Below the pieces are notes generated by a model. That model worked only from the letters and a program-made list of their open reading frames with translations. It searched no databases and was not told the origin of the DNA. A DNA stretch of 64,000 nt from Shinella pollutisoli. GTDB lineage: Bacteria; Pseudomonadota; Alphaproteobacteria; Rhizobiales; Rhizobiaceae. Both the position numbers and the translations under genes were made by a program. Below, in pieces: positions 13,106-17,994 of this stretch (its first letter is position 1; every line of letters starts with the position of its first letter). The stretch spans positions 124,001 through 188,000 of the forward strand of contig NZ_JANFDG010000001.1 in assembly GCF_024609765.1 (NCBI RefSeq). The letters run 5' to 3'.

Positions 13106-13633
13106 ATGAACAAGCTCATTCTCGCCGCCGGCGCCCTCATTCTGGCCGCGGCTCCCGCATTCGCCCATGTCACGCTCGACAAGGGGGAAGCCCCGGTCGG
13201 CTCCACCTACAAGGCGGTATTCCGCGTGCCGCACGGTTGCGAGGGTCTCGCCACCAACGTGGTGCGCGTGCGCATTCCCGAGGGCGTCATCGCCGTCAAG
13301 CCGATGCCCAAGCCCGGCTGGACGCTGGAGAAGATCAAGGGCAAATATGCCAAGACCTACGACTATCACGGCACGCCGACCGGCGAAGGCATGCAGGAGA
13401 TCGTCTGGAAGGGCGGCAATCTCGGCGACGACGAATATGACGAGTTCATCCTGCGCGGCTATATAACGCCGGATCTCGCGGTCGGCAGCACGCTCTATTT
13501 CCCGGTCGTCCAGGAATGCGGGGCGGACAAGGCCGAGCGCTGGATCGAGATCCCGGCCGAAGGGCAGACGAGCGACGACCTCGAACTGCCCGCCCCGGGC
13601 GTGAAGCTCATCGAGAAGACCGGCGGCCACTGA
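13106..13633 (+). CDS. YcnI-like (DUF1775) periplasmic copper-associated protein
   Basis: A 175-residue exported protein with a clear Sec signal peptide (residues 1-20, M-N-K-L-I-L-A-A then cleavage after A-F-A). The mature protein begins H-V-T-L, placing a His at the new N terminus as in YcnI domain proteins, where that His helps bind Cu(II). The conserved F-R-V-P-H-G-C block is near residue 43, and a Trp-containing P-K-P-G-W segment follows. AAGGAG precedes the ATG. It sits 26 bases before the CopC-CopD fusion, the usual neighbour of YcnI genes, so a role in copper trafficking in the periplasm is well supported by both domain and context. Confidence 0.85.
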   Translation: MNKLILAAGALILAAAPAFAHVTLDKGEAPVGSTYKAVFRVPHGCEGLATNVVRVRIPEGVIAVKPMPKPGWTLEKIKGKYAKTYDYHGTPTGEGMQEIVWKGGNLGDDEYDEFILRGYITPDLAVGSTLYFPVVQECGADKAERWIEIPAEGQTSDDLELPAPGVKLIEKTGGH

Positions 13634-13659
13634 GCGTTCGCCGGGTCGGGGGGACGGGC

Positions 13660-15252
13660 ATGATCCGCAGGCTTGTGCATCTCGCGCGGCTCGTGCCGCT
13701 CGTGCTTCTGGCGCTGACCATGCAGGTCGCCGCCGCGTCGGCCCATGCCTCGCTGACGGGCTCGGAGCCCGCCGACGGGACGGTGGTGGCGGCAGCACCC
13801 GAGGCCTACTCGCTGACCTTCAGCGAGCCGGTCTCGCCGCTGTCGCTGCGGCTGGTGGGGCCGAACGGCGGCGCGGTCGAGCTCGACCGGTTCGATCTCG
13901 TCGACCGGACGCTCAGGATCGCCGCCCCCGCCGGCATCGGCCGGGGAACCCATGTGCTGAGCTGGCGCGTCGTCTCGGAGGACGGGCATCCCGTCGGCGG
14001 CGCGCTCGTCTTCTCGATCGGTGCGCCGAGCGAGGGGGTGCCGCAGGTCGCCGACGGCAGCGACCGCGGGGTGCAGGCCGGCCTCTGGCTTTGCAAGATC
14101 GCGCTCTTCCTCGGCCTCTTCGCAGGCTGCGGCGGCGTCTTCGCCCGCCGCGTGCTGATGCCCGGCATCGTTTCGGGCCGCGGCTTCGTCGCGGCCATGC
14201 TTCTGCTCGGCGCGGCCGGAACCGTTCTCTCCATCGGCTTCCAGGGTCGCGACGCGCTGGGGGCCGGCCACCTCGGCGACATCGCCGTCTGGTCGGCCGG
14301 CCTCGCCACCAGTTACGGCCGCACCGTCGCCGCCGCGCTCGTCGCCTTCGCGCTTGCCGGCACGGCCCTGCGGCTGACGGGGCGTGCCGCCACCGCCGCG
14401 GCGTCCGCGGTACTCCTTCTCGCGGGCCTCGCCCCGGCGCTGAGCGGGCACGCCAGCGCCGCCGCGCCGCAGGTGCTGATGCGGCCCGCCGTCTTCCTGC
14501 ATGCGGCCGGGATCGCCGTCTGGATCGGCGCGCTGGTGCCGCTCGGCCTCGCGCTCAGCCGCGGCGAGGCCGGAGCCGCCGCGGCACTGCGGCGCTTTTC
14601 GCGCGCCATCGCCCCGATGGTCGCCGTGCTCGTGCTTGCCGGCATCGCGCTTGCCGTCGTGCAGGTCGGGCAGCCCGGCGCACTCCTCGACACGGCCTAC
14701 GGACAGGTCTTCCTCGTGAAGCTGGCGCTGCTCGCCGTCCTCTTCCTCCTCGCCGCGATGAACCGCTGGGGGCTGACGGCGAAGGCCGAAGCCGGCGATC
14801 CGGCGGCGACGCGCCGTCTCGCCCGCTCGATTGCGGCGGAATCGCTGATCGTCCTCCTCGTCTTCGGCGCGGCGGCGACCTGGCGCTTCACGCCGCCGCC
14901 GCGCGTGCTTACCGCCGCCGCGGCCGTCCCGGCCACCGTGCATATCCACAGCGACAAGGCGATGGCCGAAATCGTCGTGACGCCGGGGCGTGCGGGACCG
15001 GTTTCCGTGACGGCGACGCTGCTCACCCATGCCTTCGAGCCCATGGAGGCGAAGGGAGTCTCCTTCGTCTTCTCCAATCCGGCGGCCGGCATCGAGCCGT
15101 TCAAGCGGCAGGCCGAACGGCAGGCGGACGGCACGTGGCGGAGCGGCGACGTCGTCCTGCCGCTCGCCGGCGAATGGAGCCTGCGCGTCGACGTGCTCGT
15201 CAGCGATTTCGAGATCCTGCGCCTTACGGGCACGCTCGCCGTCCGGCCGTGA
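13660..15252 (+). CDS. CopC-CopD fusion, copper-binding and membrane transport protein
   Basis: A 530-residue protein. Residues 1-29 are a signal peptide ending S-A-H-A; the mature N terminus H-A-S-L starts the CopC beta-barrel (to ~130), with the E-D-G-H-P-V-G-G motif near residue 109 that supplies a copper-site Asp/His. Residues ~150-430 carry about eight transmembrane helices of CopD, including the H-A-A-G-I-A-V-W-I-G-A-L block. The last ~95 residues form an extra periplasmic beta domain. Such fusions (YcnJ-like) import or handle copper. It follows the YcnI-like gene closely, in one operon with it. The C-terminal extension beyond CopD is also seen in YcnJ-type proteins. Confidence 0.85.
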   Translation: MIRRLVHLARLVPLVLLALTMQVAAASAHASLTGSEPADGTVVAAAPEAYSLTFSEPVSPLSLRLVGPNGGAVELDRFDLVDRTLRIAAPAGIGRGTHVLSWRVVSEDGHPVGGALVFSIGAPSEGVPQVADGSDRGVQAGLWLCKIALFLGLFAGCGGVFARRVLMPGIVSGRGFVAAMLLLGAAGTVLSIGFQGRDALGAGHLGDIAVWSAGLATSYGRTVAAALVAFALAGTALRLTGRAATAAASAVLLLAGLAPALSGHASAAAPQVLMRPAVFLHAAGIAVWIGALVPLGLALSRGEAGAAAALRRFSRAIAPMVAVLVLAGIALAVVQVGQPGALLDTAYGQVFLVKLALLAVLFLLAAMNRWGLTAKAEAGDPAATRRLARSIAAESLIVLLVFGAAATWRFTPPPRVLTAAAAVPATVHIHSDKAMAEIVVTPGRAGPVSVTATLLTHAFEPMEAKGVSFVFSNPAAGIEPFKRQAERQADGTWRSGDVVLPLAGEWSLRVDVLVSDFEILRLTGTLAVRP

Positions 15253-15338
15253 AACCGCCTGTCCTCTTTGCGCCGGACGGATGTCGCTTTCATGTGATCC
15301 CCGGCTCCGGGTCCGTGGTTTTATCAATTCCGTTCAAG

Positions 15339-15510
15339 GTGCTCTCCGACGATTTGCCGGAGGGATAATTGGGAAGCCGGTTCAATGCCGGCGCTGCCCC
15401 CGCAACGGTAGCGGAGCCTGACGTCGCGACGGAAGCCACTGGGCGAAAGCCTGGGAAGGCGTCGCGGCAGTCCCGGAAGGGACGGCTCCGGAGCCCGGAA
15501 ACCAGCCTCG
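15339..15510 (+). promoter_or_regulatory. Cobalamin riboswitch
   Basis: The leader shows the ordered conserved blocks of the adenosylcobalamin aptamer: GGTGCT at 15339, GGGAAGCCGG at 15371, the B12 box GCTGCCCCCGCAAC at 15393-15406, GCCACTG at 15435-15441, GGGAAGGCG at 15453, and GAGCCCGGAAACC near 15491-15503. All read on the plus strand, so it controls the gbcA-like gene that begins 137 bases further on. Cobalamin riboswitches normally shut off expression when B12 is plentiful. A GC hairpin with a T-rich tail follows and can serve as the expression platform. The CopCD gene lies upstream and is not the target. Bases 15253-15338 hold the presumed promoter, which I cannot pinpoint. Confidence 0.9.
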
Positions 15511-15573
15511 GACCATCGAAACCCGACTGATCGCGGTGGGCGGTCAAGAGGCGGAACGTCGCGGCAGGCCCAT

Positions 15574-15601
15574 GCGGGCCGGCATGCCCGCGGCCTTCTT
15601 T
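15574..15601 (+). terminator. Terminator hairpin of the riboswitch expression platform
   Basis: GCGGGC (15574-15579), a 6-base loop, and GCCCGC (15586-15591) are followed by GGCCTTCTTT. The upstream GGCAGGCCCATG overlaps the stem and could form an alternative pairing. Its place between aptamer and first gene supports transcription attenuation. Confidence 0.55.
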
Positions 15602-15647
15602 CCTCCATCACCACCAGTTCAGTCCTTGTACCCTTGCGAGGACGGAC

Positions 15648-16892
15648 ATGGACGCACGCAACGAAATGCTGAAGCTCATCCGCAACCGGCGCGAAGGCTT
15701 CAGCCTGGCGCAGCCCTTCTACATCGACCCCGACTTCTACCGGCTCGACCTGGAGCTGATCTGGTATCGCGACTGGCTCTTCGTCGGCCACGACTGCGAG
15801 ATCCCGAAGGCCGGCGGCTATTTCACGCTGCAGGTCGGCGACTATCCGGTGGTCGTGGTGCGCGGGCGCGACGGCGAGATCCGCGCCTTCCACAATTCCT
15901 GCCGCCACCGCGGCAGCCGCGTCTGCACCACGCACAAGGGCACGGCCGCGCGTCTCGTCTGCCCCTACCACCAGTGGACCTATGACCTCGACGGCAAGCT
16001 GGTCTTCGCCCGCCACATGGGCGACGACTTCTGCAAGGACGATTTCGGCCTGAAGCCCGTCGCCTGCGAGAGCGTCGCCGGCTACGTCTTCATCTGTCTC
16101 GCCGACCAGCCGGCCGACTTCGCGCCGTTCCGCGCGCTGATGGAGCCCTATTTCAGGCCGCACAATCTCGTCGACGCGAAGGTCGCGCACGAGGCGACGA
16201 TCATCGAGAAGGGCAACTGGAAGCTCGTCTGGGAGAACAACCGCGAGTGCTACCATTGCGCCGCCAACCATCCGGATCTCTGCAAGACCTATCCGGAGGC
16301 GCCGACCATCACGGGCGTCAGCGGCGCGCAGGACGACCCGGAGATCGCCGAGCACTGGGCGCGCTGCGAGGCGGCCGGCCTGCCCTCGCAGTTCCGCATC
16401 GATGAAGCCGGGCAGTACCGGGCGACGCGTGCGCCGCTCTTGCGCGACGCCGTCAGCTACACGGCGACCGGCCGGCGCGCCGTGCGCCGCAACCTCTCCG
16501 ACCGGGTCTCGGCCGAGCGCATCGGCACGCTGCTCCTCTACCACTACCCGACGACCTGGAACCACATCCTCGGCGACCATGCCATCACCTTCCGCGTGCT
16601 GCCGCTCAGCGCCACCGAGACGGCGGTGACGACGAAATGGCTGGTGCACAAGGACGCGGTCGAAGGCGTCGACTACGACCTTGCCGAGCTGATCCACGTC
16701 TGGACCGAGACCAACGACGAGGACCGGCGGATCGTCGAGGAGAACGCCTTCGGCATCAAGTCGCCCGCCTACGAGCCCGGCCCCTATTCCGGGATCCACG
16801 AGGGCGGCGTGATGCAGTTCGTCGACTGGTATGCGCGCTTCATCGAGCCGCGGCTTGCCGACGGCAAGCCGTCGCTGCGCAGCGTCGCCTGA
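15648..16892 (+). CDS. gbcA: Rieske non-heme iron oxygenase, GbcA-like (glycine betaine demethylase oxygenase)
   Basis: A 414-residue oxygenase alpha subunit. The Rieske [2Fe-2S] site is C-R-H near residue 85 and C-P-Y-H near residue 105. The mononuclear iron site follows in N-N-R-E-C-Y-H-C-A-A-N-H near residue 200, giving the H-x4-H pair. The W-x-L-V-W-E-N-N-R-E-C-Y-H-C block is typical of GbcA, which with GbcB removes a methyl group from glycine betaine to give dimethylglycine and formaldehyde. Related enzymes demethylate proline betaine or carnitine-type quaternary amines, so the substrate is inferred. The reductase gene follows after 13 bases. It is the first gene after the cobalamin riboswitch. 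A dimethylglycine dehydrogenase-type gene lies 11 kb away in the same window. Confidence 0.8.
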   Translation: MDARNEMLKLIRNRREGFSLAQPFYIDPDFYRLDLELIWYRDWLFVGHDCEIPKAGGYFTLQVGDYPVVVVRGRDGEIRAFHNSCRHRGSRVCTTHKGTAARLVCPYHQWTYDLDGKLVFARHMGDDFCKDDFGLKPVACESVAGYVFICLADQPADFAPFRALMEPYFRPHNLVDAKVAHEATIIEKGNWKLVWENNRECYHCAANHPDLCKTYPEAPTITGVSGAQDDPEIAEHWARCEAAGLPSQFRIDEAGQYRATRAPLLRDAVSYTATGRRAVRRNLSDRVSAERIGTLLLYHYPTTWNHILGDHAITFRVLPLSATETAVTTKWLVHKDAVEGVDYDLAELIHVWTETNDEDRRIVEENAFGIKSPAYEPGPYSGIHEGGVMQFVDWYARFIEPRLADGKPSLRSVA

Positions 16893-16905: not shown

Positions 16906-17994
16906 ATGAACGCGATGCCCGACCTTTCCCTCTACCGCCATCTCGACGAGATGGCGCCGTGGAACGACCGCCTCCAGGTGCTGGAGGTGACCGGCGTGAT
17001 CGACGAGGCGCCGGACGTGAAGACCTTCACCTTCCGCTCCGACGCGCAGACCTGGTTCCGCTACCGGCCCGGCCAGTTCGTGACGCTGGAGCTGCCGACG
17101 GCGGACGGTCCGCTGATGCGCACCTACACGCTCTCGTCCTCGCCCTCGCGGCCCTTCTCGCTCTCGGTGACGGTGAAGGCGCAGCCGGGCAGCGTCGGCA
17201 CGCGCTGGATGTTCGACAATCTCGTGCGGGGCTCGCGCATCCGCGCGCGCGGCCCCGCCGGCGACTTCTCCCACCACAACCATCCGGCCTCGAAATATCT
17301 CTTCATCTCGGCCGGCTCCGGCGTGACGCCGATGATGTCGATGCTGCGCTGGTTCAACGACTGCGCGCCCTGGACCGACGTCGCCTTCATCAACTGCGCG
17401 CGCCGGCCGGAGGAGATCATCTTCCGCAAGGAGCTGGAGCTGCTCGGCGGCAAGATGCCGGGCCTGTCGCTCGGCTTCATGATCGAGGAGCGCTCCAGCC
17501 GGGAAAGCTGGTTCGGCCACATGGGCCGCATCGACGCCGTGCGCCTGCCGCTGCTCTCTCCGGATTTCCACGAGCGGGAGGTGTTCTGCTGCGGGCCGGA
17601 GCCCTTCATGCGCGCGGTGCGCAGCATGCTGGAATCGGCCGGCTTCGACATGGCGCATTACCATCAGGAGAGTTTTGGCGCGCCGCCCGTCGAGACGCCT
17701 CCTGCCGCCGTGCCGGATCAGGCGGATGCGGCGGCCATGGCGATCCGCTTTTCGGATTCGGGCGTCGAAGGGCGGTGCCTTCCCGGCCAGACGGTGCTGC
17801 AGGCCGCGCGCGCCAACGGCGTGCGCATCTCGGCGGCCTGCGAATTCGGCCTGTGCGGCACCTGCCGCGTCAGGAAAGTCTCCGGCGAGGTGGAGATGAG
17901 CCACAACGGCGGCATCCTCGACGAGGAGATCGCCGAGGGCTACATCCTCGCCTGCTGCTCGAAGCCGCTGTCGCCGCTGGAAATAGAGGCGTGA
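16906..17994 (+). CDS. gbcB: Ferredoxin reductase, GbcB-like partner of the Rieske oxygenase
   Basis: A 362-residue electron-transfer protein. Residues ~18-125 form the FAD domain (R-T-Y-T-L-S-S-S-P motif near residue 73), ~130-245 the NAD domain (S-A-G-S-G-V-T-P-M near residue 137 and C-C-G-P-E-P-F-M near residue 226). Residues ~280-362 form a plant-type [2Fe-2S] ferredoxin with C-E-F-G-L-C-G-T-C and a distal C-C near the end. It passes electrons from NAD(P)H to the oxygenase encoded just upstream. Order and domain layout match GbcB. The ribosome site GGGAGC lies before the ATG. A strong hairpin after the stop ends the operon. Confidence 0.85.
   Translation: MNAMPDLSLYRHLDEMAPWNDRLQVLEVTGVIDEAPDVKTFTFRSDAQTWFRYRPGQFVTLELPTADGPLMRTYTLSSSPSRPFSLSVTVKAQPGSVGTRWMFDNLVRGSRIRARGPAGDFSHHNHPASKYLFISAGSGVTPMMSMLRWFNDCAPWTDVAFINCARRPEEIIFRKELELLGGKMPGLSLGFMIEERSSRESWFGHMGRIDAVRLPLLSPDFHEREVFCCGPEPFMRAVRSMLESAGFDMAHYHQESFGAPPVETPPAAVPDQADAAAMAIRFSDSGVEGRCLPGQTVLQAARANGVRISAACEFGLCGTCRVRKVSGEVEMSHNGGILDEEIAEGYILACCSKPLSPLEIEA

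Follow-up and report, generated by a model that had tools for sequence, protein, structure and literature searches.

A cobalamin riboswitch precedes a GbcA/GbcB-like Rieske oxygenase operon in Shinella pollutisoli and co-occurs with MttB-superfamily genes in its relatives

The classical B12-independent isozymes are encoded by metE and nrd. Among demethylases, the systems closest to the proteins reported here are GbcAB of Pseudomonas and Chromohalobacter, and Stc2, the stachydrine demethylase of S. meliloti; both combine a Rieske oxygenase with a reductase and are similar in sequence to the pair described below. Isozymes of B12-dependent enzymes have been presented as one class of cobalamin regulons, in a paper whose main text contains neither the word betaine nor the word dioxygenase (PMC3766115). 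For metE, PMC9600662 gives the rule that the riboswitch is found where metH is also present, and that there is none in B. subtilis, which has metE but no metH. PMC12478193 describes MtgBCDE, reported in S. meliloti, as a system by which aerobic bacteria couple the demethylation of glycine betaine to the synthesis of methionine; GbcAB is named there as a route of other bacteria, and the word riboswitch occurs only in the title of a reference. Additionally, three cobalamin riboswitches on the S. meliloti chromosome are given by their neighbouring locus tags in the accessible part of PMC2573895. Among the open-literature matches listed, a set without supplements and most subscription papers, none connects a betaine monooxygenase with a cobalamin riboswitch.

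The window (the whole stretch of S. pollutisoli DNA that was analysed, 64 kb) was scanned with cmscan at the Rfam gathering scores. A single match above gathering was obtained, namely the RF00174 aptamer shown in Table 1, which covers positions 1-189 of the 189 of the model with an E value of 1e-25. It starts 19 bases upstream of the position proposed in the initial annotation (15339), its end lies 123 bases before the start codon (ATG) of the Rieske ORF, which runs in the same direction, and its 5' neighbour is a CopC-CopD gene ending at 15252. The initial annotation had recognized a co-directional cobalamin riboswitch before the Rieske gene and had named an Infernal search with the Rfam models as the check; the full-length match on the + strand, far above the cut-off, bears out this reading. 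In an alignment of 37 leaders, which takes in two decayed riboswitch copies, 93.8% of the cells in the RF00174 helices pair, and changes on both sides are found in 32 of the 52 consensus pairs; the covariation score was 0.381, compared with 0.173 for shuffled and at most 0.133 for slid alignments. By model score and covariation, the RNA before the Rieske gene is confirmed as a complete cobalamin riboswitch, of which adenosylcobalamin is the predicted ligand. A DUF1775 gene and the CopC-CopD fusion gene (13106-15252) lie directly upstream on the same strand as the operon. Moreover, the words TGTCGC and TGTCGT occur before the riboswitch (for example in L088, L105, L115 and L146) at 2.0 per 400 bases of leader, as against 0.24 in mononucleotide shuffles, with one at 15282-15286 of the window; they are also found in leaders that have no riboswitch, and are perhaps a candidate binding site of a regulator.

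Table 1. Features of the riboswitch leader and of the Rieske operon. Positions are those of the window.
Feature	Position	Strand	Basis
Cobalamin riboswitch aptamer (RF00174)	15320..15524	+	106.7 bits, cut-off 31.5; covariation in 37 leaders
Proposed antisequestor, 5' strand (GACTGA ... GGTGG)	15525..15539	+	RNAalifold pairing with 15611-15624
P13-like hairpin TGATCGC-GGTGG-GCGGTCA, candidate kissing-loop hairpin	15528..15546	+	Conserved in intact leaders
Proposed antisequestor, 3' strand (CCACC ... TCAGTC)	15611..15628	+	Overlaps anti-Shine-Dalgarno GTCCTTG 15622-15628
Shine-Dalgarno region CGAGGAC	15637..15643	+	MFE pairing with GTCCTTG 15622-15628
GbcA-like Rieske oxygenase, betaine demethylase candidate, 414 residues	15648..16892	+	NCBIfam GbcA; Pfam Rieske and Ring_hydroxyl_A
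GbcB-like reductase, FAD, NAD and 2Fe-2S domains	16906..17994	+	NCBIfam GbcB; Pfam domains

The two genes of the operon are separated by 13 bases, and the GbcA-type architecture, with Rieske and catalytic domains and an adjoining reductase gene, is present. As already proposed in the initial annotation, the proteins are GbcA/GbcB-like, the best NCBIfam match of the oxygenase being GbcA (508 bits, under the curated equivalog cut-off of 670) and that of the reductase being GbcB (378.7 bits, under the curated cut-off of 500); since both scores lie under their cut-offs, this label is right and the plain name GbcA is not established. The closest solved proteins to the oxygenase are Stc2 (546 bits; 232 of 390 residues identical, 59%) and the Ruegeria protein 3n0q (533 bits). 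Stc2 itself scores 493 bits on the GbcA model, and therefore this model cannot separate the two activities. The oxygenase of the window falls, in a quick protein tree with long branches, outside a clade of seven rows (support 100) that consists of Stc2, 3n0q and five genome rows (G207, G141, G090, G098 and G002), and in none of these five was a cobalamin riboswitch detected before the oxygenase. The place of the Stc2 clade in the tree is unsure, because it falls between long-branch rows that bear the riboswitch. Judging from the sequences and the gene neighbours, glycine betaine would be the likeliest substrate of the Rieske pair. The same genome encodes a second Rieske oxygenase, 42% identical to the first (G000:C41:21781-22980; L118:5761-7011, minus strand), which reaches 412 bits on the GbcA model, under its cut-off, and shares a 27.8-kb contig with one MttB gene.

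The initial annotation had suggested a search for MtgB or MttB elsewhere, and an MtgB-like gene is indeed found in the same genome, near a betaine transporter. Four PF06253 genes are present in all; the product of the one on contig 27 matches S. meliloti 4yyc with 1089.6 bits, 2qne with 416.8 bits and the solved glycine betaine methyltransferase 9yce with 415.6 bits, and with 146.7 bits for trimethylamine methyltransferase it is closer to the glycine betaine type. The genes around it (L140) encode an OpuAC betaine-binding protein, a ProV-family ATPase (351 bits, cut-off 327), a two-domain B12-binding protein, a methyl-THF:corrinoid methyltransferase (393 bits, cut-off 259), a BHMT-like protein (571 bits, cut-off 338) and MTHFR. 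The Shinella genome thus has a B12-dependent counterpart with the module set described for MtgBCDE (PMC12478193). The Rieske pair and the MtgB-like enzyme may act on the same substrate. On contig 4 of the same genome, Rfam PYLIS_3 (pyrrolysine insertion sequence mttB) was matched with 47.1 bits (L142:5100-5198, minus strand) within a gene of the MttB superfamily, the open reading frame of which has no internal stop; the match probably reflects shared gene descent and not the use of pyrrolysine.

Cobalamin riboswitches have a P13 hairpin whose loop is complementary to the aptamer. A candidate P13-like hairpin with a GGNGG loop was identified in 106 of 115 intact leaders, and 104 of these form 6 or 7 of the 7 stem pairs; at position 5 of the stem, A-T is found in 65 and G-C in 38, a covarying exchange. 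The pairing of GACTGA...GGTGG with CCACC...TCAGTC is part of the RNAalifold consensus of the 37 leaders of the window's clade, in which these proposed antisequestor strands hardly vary and show no covariation, and the GTCCTTG/CGAGGAC hairpin of the MFE fold also takes in the start codon. The P13-like, antisequestor and anti-Shine-Dalgarno helices are mutually exclusive. In the same 37 leaders, two blocks are near-invariant, namely CGACTGATCGCGGTGGGCGGTCAAG, which follows the aptamer, and CACCACCAGTTCAGTCCTTG, close to the Shine-Dalgarno sequence; the part between them, which contains a terminator-like hairpin, varies among relatives. The longest complement to the Shine-Dalgarno sequence measured 6.49, compared with 5.15 in shuffled sequences, in 91 leaders with an intact riboswitch, and 5.09 compared with 4.94 in 22 leaders without one (p 4e-5, kinship ignored). 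In this helix test, 30 of 150 leaders were excluded as they have no Shine-Dalgarno-like word in the last 22 bases, and the start codons of the 150-row set were picked by length and are not all correct. The terminator-like hairpin that the initial annotation had placed between aptamer and gene does exist (15573-15592, 7 pairs, with the T-rich tail GCCTTCTTTC); a simple scan of 15200-15700 returned 2 such sites, compared with 0.4 (sd 0.6) in shuffles. Control, however, looks translational rather than exerted through this hairpin, and the riboswitch would probably act on translation of the Rieske gene, with the helix formed in the presence of ligand assigned by analogy to the usual behaviour of such switches.

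In the relatives, RF00174 was detected with Rfam directly upstream of the Rieske gene and on the same strand in 14 of 16 named loci (absent in L070 and L077). Using a covariance model built from the 37 leaders, the riboswitch was found before the Rieske gene in 70 of 80 named loci, 13 of the 70 being training sequences of the model; these loci are the top 80 among more than 590 pattern matches, come mostly from Mesorhizobium and mostly share a common Mesorhizobium gene order. Covariance models were used because a text-pattern search overlooked one riboswitch (L071) and two decayed copies (L102 and L106). Conservation in relatives, which the initial annotation had named as a check, is therefore seen at this position, and the alternative offered there, placement of the riboswitch by rearrangement, is contradicted by it. 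Two gene neighbourhoods, each a single case, can be mentioned here. Downstream of the unit in Labrys (L051) lie a gene for glutathione-independent formaldehyde dehydrogenase (714.5 bits, cut-off 637) and cobF (312 bits, cut-off 196), and upstream of it a divergent B12 receptor-like gene (score below its cut-off) that has its own riboswitch. In Mesorhizobium sp. J18 (L061, 1-8917), the unit comes after nrdAB and before a riboswitch-bearing metE, so that the genes for B12-independent enzymes are grouped as in an island.

Should the Rieske pair stand in for a corrinoid-dependent methyltransferase at low B12, the riboswitch is expected only where the methyltransferase exists. The first family sample comprised 101 genomes, 46 of which have a Rieske match at E 1e-60, 33 of these with at least 64% identity; strong PF06253 (MttB) matches are present in 71 of the 101, and an MtgB-like orthologue in the same 71. 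The second sample, of 364 genomes and overlapping the first, has a Rieske orthologue (E 1e-180) in 178 and an MtgB orthologue in 254. The survey covered 153 of the 178 oxygenase genomes, that is, the 33 of the first sample and 120 further leaders with the gene; the other 25 are G706, whose gene contains a stop codon, and 24 genomes beyond the coordinates listed, 23 of them without an MtgB orthologue and all but one belonging to four genera that each have one genome in the survey. Riboswitches were called with Rfam in the first 33 and with the 37-leader covariance model in the 120, and were considered intact when the conserved core words were present in order. Among the 121 MttB-positive genomes of this one family, the riboswitch is intact in 115, decayed in one (G061) and missing in five (G759, G762, G786, G604 and G537), whereas among the 32 MttB-negative genomes it is intact in none, decayed in six and missing in 26. 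Riboswitch state and MttB presence thus agree in 147 of the 153 genomes, and the isozyme rule (riboswitch kept with a B12-dependent partner, missing without one) fits; the isozyme logic put forward in the initial annotation is supported by a prediction that could have failed.

The six decayed MttB-negative copies (G094, G783, G651, G729, G599 and G693) belong to one genus; the core of the B12 box is lost in them, and the aptamer ends are still recognized by the 37-leader model, with 80.8 to 109.8 bits. It is important to mention that G759, of the same genus, is MttB-positive without a riboswitch, which the isozyme model does not predict. G658 has an intact riboswitch and no MtgB orthologue, but it contains four PF06253 matches, one of them nearly full-length, and was counted as MttB-positive in the final 153-genome tally; at E 1e-30, PF06253 was absent in the other 21 MtgB-negative genomes of the second batch. 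This re-check covered 33 of the 153 genomes, namely the MtgB-negative or discordant ones and a few others. Among named genomes, which are partly those of the family survey, the riboswitch is present in 40 of 42 MttB-positive and 0 of 8 MttB-negative ones. In other families (nine oxygenase genomes out of 384 searched), five genomes are MttB-positive with the riboswitch, two are MttB-negative without it, and G207 and G141 are MttB-positive yet without it. At 56-60% identity within the family, G090 and G098 are MttB-positive and G002 is MttB-negative, all three without the riboswitch. Additionally, between 1 and 5 RF00174 matches were found in each of the 11 MttB-negative genomes of the first sample (one of the three of G094 being its decayed copy), so that B12 control as such is retained where MttB is lost.

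Fisher values for the association (about 1e-27) ignore kinship, and contrasts were therefore counted on trees, the all-branch pairings being made with a custom script. In the quick protein tree of 171 rows with both traits, 12 independent MttB contrasts were obtained, in 7-10 of which the riboswitch changes the same way and in 0 the opposite way (sign p 0.002-0.016); without the Stc2-clade rows, the figures are 11 contrasts, 7-10 and 0. The family sample alone gives 9 contrasts, mostly 6-8 the same way and 0 opposite (p 0.008-0.031). When only well-supported branches of the 150-row family tree were used, 5 contrasts remained, on average 4.6 the same way and 0 opposite, with a median p of 0.0625, significance on such branches being out of reach for a family sample of this size; on the well-supported branches of the larger tree, as it stood before G658 was corrected, the riboswitch changed the same way in 6.1 of 9 contrasts, with a median p of 0.031.

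We consider it quite likely that the operon encodes an O2-dependent betaine demethylase that, under B12 shortage, takes over from the corrinoid-dependent betaine methyltransferase (MtgB together with MtgC and MtgD), with translational control by the riboswitch. B12 would turn the operon off, probably for as long as the supply sustains a B12-dependent enzyme that would do the same job. With adenosylcobalamin bound, the aptamer and the P13 hairpin would hold each other, the strand CCACC...TCAGTCCTTG would be free and GTCCTTG would mask the Shine-Dalgarno sequence, so that translation would be off, and the methyl groups of betaine would pass to tetrahydrofolate and methionine via MtgBCD. Without B12, GACTGA...GGTGG would pair with CCACC...TCAGTC and open the Shine-Dalgarno sequence, and the Rieske pair would take off the methyl group as formaldehyde.

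The substrate and the mode of control are the points at which this explanation could be varied. With the isozyme logic unchanged, the shared substrate might be stachydrine (proline betaine) or some other quaternary amine, the B12-dependent partner then being a different MttB paralogue; the close solved proteins Stc2 and its Ruegeria relative, the four PF06253 genes of the genome and the failure of the GbcA model to split Stc2 from the window's protein all point in this direction. We regard such a substrate as unlikely, as the Stc2 clade excludes the window's protein and its five genome rows have no riboswitch, albeit in an unsure branching order, and as the MtgB-like orthologue, which adjoins a betaine transporter, is found in the very genomes that have any strong MttB match. 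Similarly improbable is the isozyme explanation with transcription termination at 15573-15592 as the control: the 7-pair hairpin with its T-rich tail passes the simple scan, in which such sites are commoner than in shuffles, but its region varies among relatives, while the P13 and Shine-Dalgarno blocks are near-invariant in the window's clade.

Two further proposals can be considered. The oxygenase might feed B12 synthesis, through conversion of betaine to glycine and 5-aminolevulinate or through its methyl groups, and be repressed by B12 like a biosynthetic gene; betaine increases B12 yield in fermentations according to PMC8123684, and cobF lies downstream of the unit in Labrys. This proposal does not predict the absence or decay of the riboswitch in genomes without MttB, which (in the first sample) retain other cobalamin riboswitches; it is disfavoured by the MttB dependence, and we give it very little weight. 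Arrival of the riboswitch by rearrangement, without any function for the oxygenase, is suggested by the unusual target and by nothing else, and is scarcely credible: a rearrangement or chance origin is contradicted by covariation and by the position conserved in the named loci, and of the nine oxygenase genomes from other families, five carry the riboswitch at this same place.

Substitution of the Rieske pair for MtgBCD would follow the rule known for metE, in that the B12-independent enzyme of a pair is regulated and the same dependence on the partner is found for MttB and the Rieske gene. What sets the present case apart is a catabolic target, an O2-dependent Rieske demethylase, and an MttB-superfamily system as its partner. 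The nrd riboswitch, which precedes a class I ribonucleotide reductase, likewise targets a B12-independent isozyme and is present in the same genome, but nrd serves essential biosynthesis and the window's operon the use of betaine. A catabolic O2-dependent enzyme is a new kind of target for the known logic and joins the B12-independent isozymes under cobalamin riboswitches. Moreover, the co-occurrence provides evidence of a genetic kind, obtained independently of biochemistry, that the Rieske pair shares one job with the MttB-superfamily enzymes of aerobic alphaproteobacteria, which bears on betaine use by soil and plant-associated bacteria, and riboswitch decay can point to functional partners. 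With somewhat more confidence than doubt, we extend the explanation to a large alphaproteobacterial group in which B12 status would set the fate of betaine methyl groups, either kept via MtgBCD as methyl-THF and methionine or burned to formaldehyde; the riboswitch of the Rieske gene would make this choice alongside those of metE and nrd, and would decay once the B12 route is lost.

The Shinella genome (5.22 Mb, 79 contigs) contains six RF00174 matches, and at least two of the six precede B12-independent isozymes, namely metE (530 bits, over a stretch truncated where the locus ends) and nrdH, which is followed by the large and small chains of ribonucleotide reductase. Of the other four, one is the riboswitch of the window's operon, and three are located 5' of cbtA, of metH and of a gene for an EitA-like ABC binding protein (score below its cut-off). 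The match before metH (G000:C23:182037-182259, minus strand; L117:6038-6260) scores 128.6 bits and is separated from the gene by an unassigned 85-codon ORF; a B12 riboswitch before this B12-dependent enzyme is unexpected.
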